A stretch of 64,000 nucleotides of DNA from Halapricum desulfuricans (GTDB lineage: Archaea > Halobacteriota > Halobacteria > Halobacteriales > Haloarculaceae): positions 434,001-498,000 of the forward strand of contig NZ_CP064788.1 of assembly GCF_017094525.1 (NCBI RefSeq), in the 5' to 3' direction. The notes under the pieces are model-generated. The model did not search any database. It was not told where the DNA came from and was given only the letters and a program-made list of their open reading frames with translations. Each line of letters opens with the position of its first letter. The stretch's first letter is position 1. The position numbers were made by a program, and so were the translations under genes. Shown here piece by piece: positions 3,226 to 59,373 of this stretch.

Positions 3226-3416
3226 CACCGCTTGCGGTGCGGTCCGGGAATCCTCGCCGTCGTCGGGTGGTTCGAGAGAGCGAAGCTCTCTCGTCATCTG
3301 CTCACGGCGCTTTGCGCCGTTCGCAGGTTCGTGGGACTGGTCCCACGCTCATCACGAAAGGCGCTCGCGCCTTTCGAACGACTACGCCCGACTGCCCGAG
3401 GGATCTTCGATCCTTC
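3226..3416. repeat. Array of micro-hairpins (cassette cluster A)
   Basis: Six short palindromes lie in tandem: CACCGC/GCGGTG (3226-3239); CGAGAGAGC/GCTCTCTCG (3273-3293, loop GAA); ACGGCGC/GCGCCGT (3304-3320, loop TTT); GTGGGAC/GTCCCAC (3331-3346, loop TG); CGAAAGGCGC/GCGCCTTTCG (3355-3376, loop TC); GAGGGATC/GATCCTTC (3398-3416, one G-T pair). Linkers contain TCATC or CTCATCA. Each stem has a different sequence. The rest of 2999-3553 has no convincing gene; the long plus-strand frame across it is only open because of the hairpins. Confidence 0.75.
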
Positions 3417-23896: not shown

Positions 23897-25189
23897 TCAA
23901 GTGGTTCGAGAGACTCCGTCTCTCGTCATCACGGAAGACGACGTCTTCCGTACGACCCCGGGGCTTCCTGCTTCAACGACGCGCTTTGCATCCACAGCCT
24001 CTCGCTGAGGTGTGAACGTAGGGAGCGCAGTCTGCACAGGCGTTGATTCGGAGCGTCCCGCCCCTAACTGCTTGAGTCCTCGATGAAGAATATTCTTCGC
24101 CGCGTTGAGGTCGCGGTCGTCTGTATGGCCGCACGCCGGGCATGAATGTTCGCGCACCCAGATTGGCTTGGCCGTCTCGACACCACACACAGCGCACTCT
24201 TTCGTCGTGCCTTCCGGCTTCACCTTTTCGACGTGCGTGCCGTGTAGGTCAGCCTTGTATTCCAGTAGGTCAAGAAACCGCGACCACGCCGCGTCTTGCT
24301 TGTTTTTGCCGTTCTGACTGGTTTCCAGCATCGGCTTCACGTCCAAGTCTTCGACGGCCACAACATCGTACTCTGTGACCAGCCACGTCGTCAACTTGTG
24401 CTGATAGTCCAGCACCTTCCGCTTGATTGTCCGTTTCGCTTGTGCTACTTTTCGGCGTTGTTTCTCCCAGTTGGCAGAGCCGTGTTCTTTCCGGTCGAGT
24501 TTTCGCTGCTCGCGTGCATAGCGGTCGTACTCGTCGGACAGGTCAAGCGTATCCACGGACAGATTTTCAGACGTGTGGATGTAACTGGTAATGCCAAGGT
24601 CAACACCAACACAATCTTCGGGTTCGATCTCACTCAATGGCGGTCTCTCGGGTGTGTCTTCCACAGTAGTCACGAGTGAGACGTACCACTCGCCAGTTGT
24701 CTCTTTCTTGAGAATAACCTCGTCAATGTCGTCTGCTGGCGGTACGTCACGTTCTGCGCGAATCTTGAACCAGCCAATCTTTTCGAGTCGGAGTCGTATG
24801 AATCGGTCGTCGCCCGTGTTGTAATCCACGTTCCAGCGACAGGGTTGATTGTACGACACTGACCGAAATTCGCCTGCACCCTGCCACCGCAACCGCCCAA
24901 CATCGTAGCCTTCGTTTCGGCGTTCTTGCAGTGTCTCAAGGTCGTCGTGAATCTGGCTTATTGCCTGTTGTGCGGCGTGTTGTGACGGGTCGGCAAAGGT
25001 CGGCCATTTGTCAGTCCACTCTGTGAGCTTGTCATGTTGGTCGTAGTCAGATGTCTGGTCGTTGTATTCACTGCGGTAGTAGTCTCGGACAGCGTGATTG
25101 CGAATCTGCCGGAGAATGTCGATGTGCTGCCACGCTTCGCTGGCCACGTCATCGGGCAGGTACGCACGGAAGCGAAGCGTGTGTTTCAT
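23897..25189 (-). CDS. tnpB: TnpB RNA-guided nuclease (RuvC/OrfB_Zn_ribbon)
   Basis: 430 residues with all key residues present. The RuvC triad is Asp197 (CVGVDLGITS), Glu280 (VAVEDLDVKP) and Asp360 (DDRDLNAAKN). The zinc ribbon is Cys332/335 (CAVC) and Cys350/353 (CPAC). TnpB nucleases use a guide (omega) RNA made from the element's 3' end, here the left side around 23880-24000, and cut DNA to favour element retention. The C-terminal 20 residues after EAGSP are encoded by the hairpin cassette in the end stem-loop and are atypical: related tails end GA-stop at this point. It starts 5 nt after the AbrB-type gene stop. Confidence 0.92.
   Translation of the reverse strand: MKHTLRFRAYLPDDVASEAWQHIDILRQIRNHAVRDYYRSEYNDQTSDYDQHDKLTEWTDKWPTFADPSQHAAQQAISQIHDDLETLQERRNEGYDVGRLRWQGAGEFRSVSYNQPCRWNVDYNTGDDRFIRLRLEKIGWFKIRAERDVPPADDIDEVILKKETTGEWYVSLVTTVEDTPERPPLSEIEPEDCVGVDLGITSYIHTSENLSVDTLDLSDEYDRYAREQRKLDRKEHGSANWEKQRRKVAQAKRTIKRKVLDYQHKLTTWLVTEYDVVAVEDLDVKPMLETSQNGKNKQDAAWSRFLDLLEYKADLHGTHVEKVKPEGTTKECAVCGVETAKPIWVREHSCPACGHTDDRDLNAAKNILHRGLKQLGAGRSESTPVQTALPTFTPQREAVDAKRVVEAGSPGVVRKTSSSVMTRDGVSRTT
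23901..23953. repeat. Micro-hairpin cassette in the TnpB element end-loop (cassette C)
   Basis: Two perfect palindromes: CGAGAGAC-TCC-GTCTCTCG (23907-23925) and ACGGAAGAC-GAC-GTCTTCCGT (23931-23951), joined by TCATC. They occupy the loop of the element's terminal stem. The equivalent loop at 54346-54350 is only CTTGA, so this is an insertion of about 53 bp. It displaces the tnpB reading frame end, and the stop TGA at 23897-23899 is on the far side. Confidence 0.8.
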
Positions 25190-39949: not shown

Positions 39950-40640
39950 CTAGTTCAGCACCACCTCAGCTGGAGGCGAGCCATCTAACGCTTGGTTCGG
40001 TCGATTGCGGTTATAGTAGTGTCTGAAGCGTCTGAGGTAGCGTTTTGCGCTTGACTGACTGCCCGCCAGAATGGGTGGCTGCGGTCGATCCGCATGGTAA
40101 CAGTCTGGAACTACTTTTCCATATGGTTCTGGTTGTGGTAGTTGAGATGACCGCTCAAATCGTGACGAGAGAGCAGTTAGATAGCCACCAGCATCGACGC
40201 GAAACCCGGTGTTGGCGACGTCATATCTCTCGCTGAGACGATGCAGGAACGCCGTCCTCAGAAATCAGAGATCTCTGATGTGCGAACGAGAGCGTCGCTC
40301 TCGTTAACGTCGCGGGGTCGGTCTCGCGGCGGCTGAACACGTCTGCTTCCAGCAGGAGCTTTGGCTCTGTGTCGATGGCAGCGTAAAGCCACTTCTTTTC
40401 GCCGCCTACTTCGGTTTGTCTCTTATCGGTCGTGACCCGCAACGGCGACGCCGTCGGCGGGTCAATCTGTGTTTCAACAAGCGTTTTTTCCAGTACCAGA
40501 TTCCATGGTGACAGCGGTCGACACCCAACCAGTCTAAGACAGCCTCGATTTCATGTAACGACAACCCCATCGAGTGAAGTCGAACCGCGAAATAACGGAC
40601 GGATGTCGGTGTACGCTCGTTCTTCCAAGTGTCTTGATTA
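39950..40640 (-). pseudogene. IS6-type transposase relic, multiply frameshifted
   Basis: Reading right to left on the minus strand: ERTPTSVRYFAVRLHSMGLS and HEIEAVLDWLGVDRCHHGIW (about 40520-40620), then LRVTTDKRQTEVGGEKKWLY and AAIDTEPKLLLEADVFSRRE (about 40325-40440), and finally RRFRHYYNRNRPNQALDGSP plus PAEVVLN-stop (39950-40030). The order and motifs (WLYAAID, YYNxNRPNQALDG) are those of IS6-group DDE transposases. Frames are broken and the central region is displaced by the micro-hairpin cassette at 40264-40305. Confidence 0.8.
40264..40305. repeat. Micro-hairpin cassette in the IS6 relic (cassette D)
   Basis: ATCAGAGATCTCTGAT (40264-40279, no loop) and AACGAGAGCG-T-CGCTCTCGTT (40285-40305), linked by GTGCG. 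Same two-palindrome build as the cassettes at 23.9, 56.6 and 57.65 kb, with unrelated stem sequences. It interrupts the transposase reading frame after VFSRRETDPA. Confidence 0.72.
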
Positions 40641-54091: not shown

Positions 54092-54112
54092 CCACGGGGC
54101 TTGACCCCGTGG
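54092..54112 (+). repeat. Orphan IS1341-type end hairpin
   Basis: CCACGGGG-CTTGA-CCCCGTGG. Same build and same CTTGA loop as the hairpin at 54337-54359, with a changed outer stem. It is followed by GATGAAGCCGACAGCTCGTG. No coding tail of tnpB is recognisable upstream, so it is a remnant, or the other end of a small deleted element. Confidence 0.6.
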
Positions 54113-54242: not shown

Positions 54243-54359
54243 GTAGGTCAGGGAGGGGCCGAATCCACGCCTGCGGAGACTGCGCTCCCTGTGGATTCCC
54301 TTGTGGAATCTGTAAAGCGCGTCGTGGAAACAGGAAGCCTCGGGGCTTGACCCCGAGGC
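54243..54359 (+). pseudogene. tnpB: tnpB 3' relic with intact end hairpin
   Basis: Reads VGQGGAESTPAETALPVDSL then VESVKRVVETGSLGA-stop (54243-54350), the C-terminal tail of a TnpB; the intact copy at 23.9 kb reads AGRSESTPVQTALP and AKRVVEAGSPG. The stop TGA lies inside the loop of the end hairpin GCCTCGGGG-CTTGA-CCCCGAGGC (54337-54359). Everything upstream of the tail is missing. In TnpB elements this end specifies the guide-RNA scaffold, so a relic may still encode a scaffold. Confidence 0.78.
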
Positions 54360-56602: not shown

Positions 56603-56658
56603 TTCCGAAAACCTACGGTTTTCGGCTTTCGCAAATCTTCGATTTGCGTCAACACCGT
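56603..56658. repeat. Micro-hairpin cassette in the IS200/IS605 left end (cassette E)
   Basis: CCGAAAACC-TAC-GGTTTTCGG (56605-56625) and CGCAAATC-TTC-GATTTGCG (56630-56648) lie inside the loop of the terminal stem CCCCGCCC/GGGCGGGG. The right end of the same element has only a 6-nt loop. Same architecture as the cassette at 23.9 kb, with different stem sequences. Confidence 0.78.
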
Positions 56659-56676: not shown

Positions 56677-57084
56677 TCACTCCGGCGCGTGTTCCGTCTC
56701 TTCAATATACCGTTCAACCACTTCCTCCGATACTGCTCCCGTCGTTCCCACGTAGTACCCAACCTTCCAGAATCCGCCACCCCAGAAATACGACTCCCTA
56801 ATTTCGGGATTCCGTTCCAGCAAGTGCTTACCCGAGTACGACTTGAATTGGCGAGCGATGTCCGCCGGACTGTGCTTCGGGTCACACTGGACGAACAGGT
56901 GTACGTGGTCGTCCGCAATCTCCAACGCCAGAATCTCGTGTCCGAAGTGGTCAGCAGTCTCACCAAACAACTCTCGCACATCGTCTTCCACTACACCAAG
57001 AACCGGGTGGCGGTACTTGGGACACCAGACGAAGTGATACTTACAGGAACTAACCAAATGCGCGTGACTGCGGTACTCTTCCAA
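56677..57084 (-). CDS. tnpA: IS200/IS605 family TnpA (Y1 HUH transposase)
   Basis: 135 residues from a TTG start (MEEYRSHAHLVSSCKYHFVW). The HUH metal motif is ADDHVHLFVQ near residue 60, and the catalytic Tyr is likely in WKVGYYVGTTG near 110. It transposes single-stranded circles with hairpin ends. It appears intact. Divergent from tnpB with about 45 bp between. Confidence 0.93.
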   Translation of the reverse strand: MEEYRSHAHLVSSCKYHFVWCPKYRHPVLGVVEDDVRELFGETADHFGHEILALEIADDHVHLFVQCDPKHSPADIARQFKSYSGKHLLERNPEIRESYFWGGGFWKVGYYVGTTGAVSEEVVERYIEETEHAPE

Positions 57085-57128: not shown

Positions 57129-58486
57129 ATGGGTGAGGAAGCCACGAAAACCATTCAGACGCGCCTTCACATAGCGTCTGGTGAACGGTCGTGGCTTCAC
57201 GACGCCCGCCTCGCATCACGCGAGATATTCAACCAAACAATCCGCTTCAAACAACAAGGGTACAATCGAACCGAGATACAGAAGGAGGTTGACCGCGATG
57301 ATTTCTTGCGAAACAACAAGTGCGCGGTCGTCAGCAAAGCCCTCCAAACGTGGAAATCCTACCAGTCACTTCTTGACTGGTGGCGTGAACAGGATGACCC
57401 TGATGGCGGCAAGCCGACACCGCCAAGCACGGACAAATCTGGTTCGTACCCGCTCGTGATGGCGCACACGGAAGGCTACCGCCTTACCGTTGACGACGAC
57501 ACGAACCGCGTCCAAGTCCGCATCAGCCCGAAACCCTACAAGAAGGTGAAGGGCCATCTGCGCGGCGAGCCGGACGCGATGGACGAACTTCGAGACGCCA
57601 TCACGTCGGATGAGGTGGATGTGGGGCAGGCCGAACTCCTGTCTCGAAAATCGAAGATTTTCGACGAGTCATCGAAGTGCTCCGCACTTCGAGATACCGC
57701 GATGGCGTGTACTACCTACACGTCACGGTCACACGCGAGTTCGACGTGCCCGAACCCGACACCGCTGATACTGTGGTCGGCGTAGACATCAACGAGCGCA
57801 ACGTCGCACTTACCGCCCTTGACCGTGAGACGATGCGGACGAAAGGGACACTCGTCCTTGACTACGGGCGAGTGAAGCAGGAATGTCAACGCTACCACAC
57901 TATCACCACTCGCTGTCAGGAACACGGCAAGACGAGCATCCACCACAGACTCGGTGACAAGGAAGAGCGGTTCACCGAGTGGGTGTTGCATCGGCTCTCC
58001 CGTGCTGCCGTGGAGTTCGCAGAACAGTTCTCGAATCCGGTTATCGTGTTCGAGGATATGAGCGGCATCCGCGACGAAATCAAGTACGGGTCGTATATGA
58101 ACCGTCGATTGCACAAACTGCCGTTCCACAAGTTCGAAAAGTTCGTCTCGTACAAGGCGACGTGGCGAGAGATTCCCACGGACACGGTGGACGCCTATTA
58201 CAACTCGAAGACGTGTTCGTGCTGTGGTGAGCGTGGGTATCGTCAGGGACGGCGGTTTCGGTGTACGAACGACGAGTGTGACGTGGTGCAAGACCACGCC
58301 GACCGGAATGCGTCGGTGAACATCGCGTGGCGCGAGAAGGCAAAACTCGACGGCAACGAATCAGATTACCGGACTCACAAAACCCAGCCGCAAGTTCGGC
58401 TGGTGCGTCTGTCCGGGTCGGGGCGAGTAAGCCGCCCAACCTCATCCCGCTCGCTTGCCGAGCAGGGAGTGCTAGCGCACGGCTGA
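57129..58486 (+). pseudogene. tnpB: tnpB interrupted by a micro-hairpin insertion and frameshift
   Basis: Frame 1 runs from 57129 (MGEEATKTIQTRLHIASGER) to QAELLSR near 57650. The second frame resumes DGVYYLHVTVTREFDVPEPD near 57695 and ends at 58486. Between them lies a two-palindrome insertion. All catalytic parts are in the second half: VVGVDINERN, VIVFEDMSGIRD, zinc Cys pairs CSCCG and CTNDEC, and QDHADRNASVN. Without the insertion it would be a full RNA-guided nuclease of about 440 residues. It is now probably dead. Confidence 0.88.
57645..57691. repeat. Micro-hairpin cassette inside tnpB (cassette F)
   Basis: CGAAAATC-GAA-GATTTTCG (57645-57663) and CGAAGTGC-TCC-GCACTTCG (57673-57691), linked by ACGAGTCAT. 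It falls between the conserved tnpB segments GQAELL and RDGVYYLHV and shifts the frame. This is direct evidence that the cassette entered a formerly intact gene. Confidence 0.85.
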
Positions 58487-58548
58487 GGGAATTAGAAAAG
58501 CCTCGGGCCACCGCGCCCGAGGTTGTTTACTAACTTCTCGGGAGCGTA

Positions 58549-59373
58549 TCAGATTACGACTTCGACATCGATGAGGAACGTCTCCTTGGCTCGTTTGGCC
58601 TCCGGCCCCTCCGGGACGAGGCCGGGTGTCGACGGTTCGTCGTTGAACCGGTCCGGATCCGGGGAGAGATACTCCAGCACCTCCTTGAATGTCGATCCCT
58701 GTCTCCCGGTGATGTGTACGAACCCACCGTACTGGCGCTGCTCGAACGGGGTCGTGTCCGGGTCGGGAACGGCTTCTCGAATGCAGTCGATGTGCTCTCG
58801 AATGTATTTCGCGGCTTCGTGCTGTGAGTACTGGCAGTCGGCGTGGAGCTGTTCTTGTTCGTGCTCGTCGAGGTCGGCCTCGACGTGCTTGGAGGACTCG
58901 TAACTGACTGCGTCAGCGCTGAAATCGCCGGTGAGAAAGCTGAGGTTCACGGTGAAACTCTTCGGATATCGCAGGATCGCCAGGAAGAAGATCTGCTCGT
59001 CGACCGTGTAGCGCTCCTGCAGGCGATAGTAACACTCCAGATAGTACGCCGCGAGCGCCCCGATCCAGTCGTCGCGCTCGCCGTCGAGATACGCGGTCGC
59101 AACGTCGTAGTAGTCCTCGCCACCGACCTGTTGCAAGCGATGCTCGAAACTCTGTCTCATCTCGTGCAGCTCGTCTTCGTATGCTTCCGTGAGCGGCACG
59201 TCCGGGTCGTCGAGCAACGTGCTCTTTCGCTCGCCGGCCGCCGCGATTCTCATCATATTTTGGTGGAAGGACCGCTCGGCCTCCACGTCCGGGAGCGGAA
59301 TTCGAACTGCCTGTCGGCGCAGGATCTTCGAGCTGGCTTTCAGACGATCGCTCCAGTTGTTCACAGTACTCAA
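58549..59373 (-). CDS. Haloarchaeal protein of unknown function
   Basis: 274 residues, MSTVNNWSDRLKASSKILRR. N-terminal 130 residues are helical, with HEMRQSFEHRLQQVGGEDYY in the middle; then an aromatic region YYLECYYRLQERYTVDEQIF. The C-terminal half has FVHITGRQGSTFKEVLEYLS. It has no known motif, no Cys cluster and no TM. It lies beside the IS right end and may be part of the same accessory patch. The start is not certain. Confidence 0.72.
   Translation of the reverse strand: MSTVNNWSDRLKASSKILRRQAVRIPLPDVEAERSFHQNMMRIAAAGERKSTLLDDPDVPLTEAYEDELHEMRQSFEHRLQQVGGEDYYDVATAYLDGERDDWIGALAAYYLECYYRLQERYTVDEQIFFLAILRYPKSFTVNLSFLTGDFSADAVSYESSKHVEADLDEHEQEQLHADCQYSQHEAAKYIREHIDCIREAVPDPDTTPFEQRQYGGFVHITGRQGSTFKEVLEYLSPDPDRFNDEPSTPGLVPEGPEAKRAKETFLIDVEVVI

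Follow-up and report, generated by a model that had tools for sequence, protein, structure and literature searches.

A 53-nt two-hairpin insert in a haloarchaeal tnpB gene, probably a copy of a tiny and apparently mobile unit of IS200/IS605 transposons

The tnpB gene of an IS200/IS605 element in the haloarchaeon Halapricum desulfuricans (2.89-Mb genome, one contig) contains a 53-nt insert of two hairpins, which is probably a copy of a tiny, non-autonomous and apparently mobile unit that lives in haloarchaeal IS200/IS605 transposons, in this case (unit B) at a single site in tnpB. This reading comes from the comparison of sequences, and how such units enter and which enzyme moves them are steps that we infer. 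The insert (TCTCGAA...TTCGAGA) occupies positions 57642-57694, forward strand, of the window, i.e. the whole 64-kb stretch of DNA that was analysed, and about 40 related loci have the same site empty.

Host element, insertion site and reading frame

The host element extends from about 56571 to about 58530 (ends TCTAAACG... on the left and ...GTTGTTTAC on the right; no strand assigned) and has divergent tnpA and tnpB genes. Its boundaries were set where two near-identical copies at different genomic sites (L036 and L037) diverge, together with homologous left ends. tnpA (56677-57084, reverse strand) encodes an intact Y1 (HUH) transposase of 135 aa (PF01797, E 1.5e-38), and tnpB (57129-58486, forward strand), which is frameshifted by the 53-nt insert, a TnpB/Cas12f-like nuclease (PF07282 on its C-terminal part, E 3.8e-16) whose profile alignment matches solved TnpB/Cas12f chains. 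An omega-RNA gene of the sot2652 family (58365-58551, forward strand; RF02657, 182 bits, full-length match) covers both the right end of the element and the 3'-terminal part of tnpB. The presence of a Y1 transposase and TnpB, terminal hairpins, a right-end omega-RNA gene and no inverted termini places the element in IS200/IS605. Judging from its reading frames, the window copy has lost TnpB but retains tnpA, its IS ends and its omega-RNA gene. Elsewhere in the window, two hairpins with loop CTTGA (54092-54112 and 54337-54359), some 245 bp apart, resemble PATE-like empty right-end hairpins.

Homologous tnpB loci were collected from 148 genomes of the family (41 loci found with the C-terminal part of TnpB, plus homologues). 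In nearly all of those that span the site (~40) it is unfilled and reads CTCCTG|TACCGC, and alignment to these empty relatives, a check proposed in an earlier note on this DNA, gives the inserted bases with an ambiguity of 1 nt. Hairpin 1 (57644-57664, forward strand) has a 9-bp stem and the loop GAA (TCGAAAATC-gaa-GATTTTCGA; AAA in several other carriers), and hairpin 2 (57672-57692, forward strand) a 9-bp stem and the loop TCC (TCGAAGTGC-tcc-GCACTTCGA; TCCC, CACG or CGTG in carriers of a 54-nt form). Both stems are perfect, and the folding energy is far under that of shuffled sequences (z = -3.8; 0/200 shuffles as low). The termini TCTCGAA and TTCGAGA are inverted repeats, with a target duplication of at most 1 nt (possibly a single T). 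In a comparison with MITEs that concerns the host IS ends only, the ends of unit B differ from those of its host (TCTAAAC...TTTAC) and there is no duplication; the unit is also too short for much of the guide and linker sequence of a canonical IS608-type end. The earlier note had taken the interval for a two-palindrome cassette inserted into pre-existing sequence, and both parts of that view are borne out by the perfect hairpins, the exact 53-nt insert and the abundant empty alleles, which include an IS copy more than 99% identical to a filled one.

Eight matches to unit B were found among 394 genomes, 8/8 at the one tnpB site, in seven genomes of six genera (G000, which is the present genome, G001, G274, G303, G406 with two copies, G417 and G429). 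The unit is 53 nt long only in G000 and G001, and 54 nt in G274, G303, G406, G417 and G429. The 54-nt form is stop-free and in frame, adding 18 residues to TnpB between QAELL and YRDGVYYLHV (peptide LL-SRKSKIFDESSKC(HGT/SRT/RGT)SR-YRDGVYY). The difference between the two forms is one base in the loop of the second hairpin, by which the 53-nt form shifts the frame: in the window, GQAELL... reads on to a stop at 57785, while RDGVYYLHV... lies in the frame of 57677-58486, which agrees with the earlier observation that tnpB coding is conserved on either side in different frames. The claim that the hairpin pair itself breaks tnpB does not hold as written, however, since homologous intact TnpB proteins with the same residues in frame, which the earlier note had named as the counter-evidence to look for, were looked for and found, open from start to stop (L077, L078, L076 and L080). 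Given these in-frame carriers and a length difference confined to the second loop, the hairpin pair is compatible with coding, and the break in the window is a matter of one base.

The window tnpB is otherwise open and its pairwise w against neighbours is ~0.08-0.11 (purifying selection in its history), so that the frame break is recent. The 53-nt copies of G000 and G001 belong to clearly different tnpB lineages (90% identity), the nearest relatives of each being without the unit; since the length of 53 nt recurs in a second lineage of the genus, this form may be the version that inserted in the genus. In the other 53-nt copy (L074/G001) there are more frameshifts, as well as a stop in tnpA. 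In the profile alignment with solved Cas12f/TnpB chains, the insertion point falls in a short turn that connects two strands and whose length already varies by a residue among the chains, and the site is thus predicted to be a beta-turn of TnpB. Modelled with AlphaFold, TnpB plus its insert gives a poor structure (pLDDT 42) and a weak hint, in line with that alignment, that the insert lies between the two strands.

A wider set of two-hairpin units

Unit B is one of several such units. Unit A (56603-56652, forward strand; 50 nt, TTCCGAAAACC-TAC-GGTTTTCGG-CTTT-CGCAAATC-TTC-GATTTGCG-TCAA) sits in the loop of the left-end hairpin of the same IS (CCCCGCCC|CACCGTGGGCGGGG), a loop that is empty in many relatives. 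It also occurs in IS elements of other types, whose flanks have little in common, and in the right-end loops of L083 and L086; the right-end hairpin of the window copy (GCCTCGGGC|CACCGCGCCCGAGG, 58501-58522, forward strand) is empty. Unit C (51 nt) lies in frame in tnpA, which is open in L044, L046, L051 and L061, and a different, 43-nt unit is found in tnpA of L012 and L092, a few bases from the unit C site. In L075 and L080 (G406) tnpA seems to hold more than one unit, where additional residues CRQSKIDCLQIRDLQ precede the unit C peptide, and with frame changes.

Type D units are constant in their ends and linker (TGGTTCG...CGTCATCACG...CGAACGA) and variable in their stems, which are self-complementary; they sit in right-end loops. 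Eighteen copies of equal length have 98.6% paired cells, with 25 double-change cells vs 6.9 in shuffles, i.e. the changes are compensatory. A second, unrelated tnpB in the window (23897-25189, reverse strand) has its right-end hairpin filled by a type D unit (23907-23951). The units also nest in each other: in L079, ~24 residues into tnpA, hairpin 2 of unit C contains a type D unit, and in an IS remnant of the window the linker of a type D unit (3265-3382, forward strand) holds a further two-hairpin unit, which makes four hairpins. The nested unit (within the array at 3273-3376) is 55 nt long and flanked by a 4-nt TCAT repeat, and a paralogue (G000:C1:1514725; L134:14665-14832) is without the inner 55 nt, which makes an empty/filled pair within one genome.

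In another TnpB family a 54-nt unit is in frame in L016 and L057 (18 residues); the two members of that family in the present genome (L127:2346-3671 and L128:1982-3304) have a unit after the HADLTA motif that is one base longer and frameshifted. In this genome the units that lie in coding sequence, i.e. unit B and those in the two genes of the other TnpB, are out of frame, 3/3, and across the units the in-frame excess is modest, the copies not being independent; both points weigh against the explanation preferred here. In L043 (1899-1976) a 55-nt unit (TCACCAG...CTGGTGA) directly follows the left-end hairpin, with TG on either side. Inverted termini are thus present in unit B, in this left-end unit of L043 and in type D (TGGTTCG/CGAACGA), and only partially in units A and C, while short flanking repeats (up to 4 nt) occur at some units other than B.

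Pairs of hairpins (stem of at least 7, loop of 2-4, spacer of at most 16) were counted in 464 kb of the genome, consisting of 400 kb of stretches and the 64-kb window, which gave 20 pairs against 1.2 expected. In this sample, all pairs with the loop signature (16/16) lie within TnpB (IS200/IS605) elements or their remnants. The remaining four (528862, 1115571 and, in the window, 35211 and 40264) have no loop signature, lie outside the IS200/IS605 elements detected, and were set aside as chance or unrelated; the one at 40264-40305 is outside every TnpB detected. The signature itself was derived from 38 distinct pairs (76 loops), in which three-base loops GNA, or the complement TNC, make up 57/76 (75%), against 24/152 (16%) in unpaired hairpins, and in which the closing base pair is C-G in all hairpins but one (75/76). 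In units A, B and C, homologous hairpins have either a given triplet or its reverse complement as their loop (TAC/GTA, TGC/GCA, CACG/CGTG), as if single hairpins inverted in place. DNA mini-hairpins of the C(GNA)G type are unusually stable, and this would suggest that it is the DNA strand, and not the RNA, that plays a role.

Movement of unit B and rival explanations

The clearest comparison comes from L036 (Natrialba SSL1, with the unit) and L037 (N. hulunbeirensis, without it), IS copies that are more than 99% identical in different genomic surroundings, and whose difference at the site is a clean presence or absence of 54 nt, with zero SNPs for ~400 nt upstream. On the tnpB tree unit B changes state six times, at least four of them on supported branches, and a single clade of all copies with the unit is rejected (p-AU 9.5e-13); on the same tree 7 changes are needed for unit A and 8 for unit C. 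Over the 49 positions of stems and linker the inserts differ at only 0-3, whereas the tnpB genes that hold them differ by 6-28% (identity down to 0.72). Taken together, these sequence data indicate that unit B is probably mobile, and repeated precise insertion, or some other precise movement, fits them best.

That all copies of unit B share exactly one site could also be the outcome of a single old insertion into an ancestral tnpB, followed by many precise losses, which would likewise scatter the unit on the tree. Palindromes are prone to deletion, and the in-frame 54-nt copies show that the insert is tolerated. Such a history is nevertheless rather unlikely, because inserts this uniform in genes up to 28% apart would imply extreme sequence constraint, which is itself improbable since the stems of the related type D units vary freely, and because precise loss is hard with a terminal direct repeat no longer than 1 nt. 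Spread among IS copies through homologous recombination or gene conversion, rather than by independent movement, would agree with the one site in homologous genes, with the plentiful IS copies and with the near-identity of L036 and L037 outside the unit, but has a low probability. No recombination or conversion tract was found by unit B: near-site identity of pairs that both have the unit is like that of pairs in which one has it, i.e. not clearly raised. In addition, the flanks of L076 and L080 cease to match a few bases from the insert, and unit A sits in end hairpins, left and right, of dissimilar IS types with almost no common flank.

The remaining two readings concern the frameshift. If the insert were a regulatory, bypass or intron-like element, skipped by ribosomes or removed from the RNA, TnpB would be made despite the shift; this would suit an otherwise open window copy with purifying selection in its history (w ~0.08-0.11), and IS200/IS605 transcripts do undergo RNA processing in haloarchaea (PMC12558985). 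It is very improbable, however, as most carriers are in frame without a stop and need no bypass, unit lengths drift by one base via the loops, and the 53-nt copy of L074 has decayed further, in tnpA as well. An assembly or sequencing artefact is conceivable insofar as hairpins are error-prone and the break amounts to a single base, but it is hardly credible and was rejected, since the identical 53 nt are present in the separately assembled genome G001 of the same genus, which argues against an assembly error in the window, and 54-nt forms are present in five other genomes.

For the mobile unit, the course of events might then be the following. The units would enter during transposition, when the intermediate of the host transposon is single-stranded; the C(GNA)G mini-hairpins would serve as the structure recognised, and an HUH/Y1-type enzyme would move the units in trans; the host transposons that survive would be those hit in hairpin loops or, in genes, in frame. 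The enzyme acting in trans is the weak step, and a doubtful one, because unit B has no room for canonical IS608-type guides. Going further, it is possible, and put forward here tentatively, that the units form a class of site-specific micro-elements not described before, ~50 nt long and built of two C(GNA)G mini-hairpins whose stems can be exchanged and whose loops flip. Such a class would enter only IS200/IS605, probably in single-stranded form, each type at one structural site (the loop of an end hairpin, a strand of tnpA, the turn of tnpB, another unit), often with the frame kept.

Such units would be parasites of parasites near the smallest size described, with ~50 bases, no gene and a fixed site in a transposon, and their lengths often keep the genes for an RNA-guided nuclease and a transposase readable. 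The clean empty/filled pairs (more than 99% identical between the Natrialba genomes, and one within the present genome) offer material for testing the movement of SMR-type repeats, which was called enigmatic in 2011. TnpB proteins in databases may also be flagged for an 18-residue insert encoded by a parasite.

Comparison with known systems

Rickettsia palindromic elements (Ogata et al. 2000), according to the summary in PMC10969869, are ~150 bp long and lie in frame in many unrelated genes. The present units share with that description the palindromic inserts in frame (51 nt in TnpA, and 54 nt both in TnpB and in the other TnpB), but differ from it in being 51-54 nt long in coding genes and in lying, within the 464-kb sample, in IS200/IS605 genes only. 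No account of palindromes inserted in frame into tnpA or tnpB of archaea was found in the literature covered, which consisted mostly of papers outside subscription.

REP sequences and REPINs are paired short hairpins as well, and are moved by RAYT (Y1) transposases, though they are extragenic and genome-wide (PMC3116915, PMC2817692). Compared by description, they share the paired short hairpins and the Y1 link with our units, which differ in their confinement to IS200/IS605, their flipping GNA loops and their fixed sites. The PATEs of haloarchaea are very short, palindromic, free of target duplication and linked to IS605, with 52-bp forms that consist of termini only (PMC3119063), all of which recalls the present units; PATEs, however, derive from IS ends and lie in host DNA, whereas these units are unlike the IS ends of their hosts and sit inside the elements.

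Closest are the SMR-A repeats of Haloquadratum walsbyi (HqIRS42/43/55), which have no transposase, inverted termini, no target duplication and an unknown mode of mobilisation, and whose insertion sites are palindromes near the termini of IS605-type transposons and PATEs, with a length of ~110 bp and a nearly uniform sequence (PMC3119063). The present units are likewise free of a transposase, cause no target duplication (B, A and D) and have inverted termini (B, the L043 unit and D), and units A and D lie in near-terminal palindromes; unit B is instead in the coding sequence of tnpB. The four-hairpin array of the window comes near the size of SMR-A, and two Haloquadratum genomes have matches to the type D frame. 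In contrast to SMR-A, the units are 50-59 nt long with two mini-hairpins, have variable stems (with compensatory changes in D), occur nested in each other and also in frame inside tnpA and tnpB, an in-frame habit not found described in PMC3119063. Because they depart from SMR-A in both size and uniformity, and with the HqIRS families compared by description, the units are placed here beside SMR-A, as SMR-like repeats of another kind.
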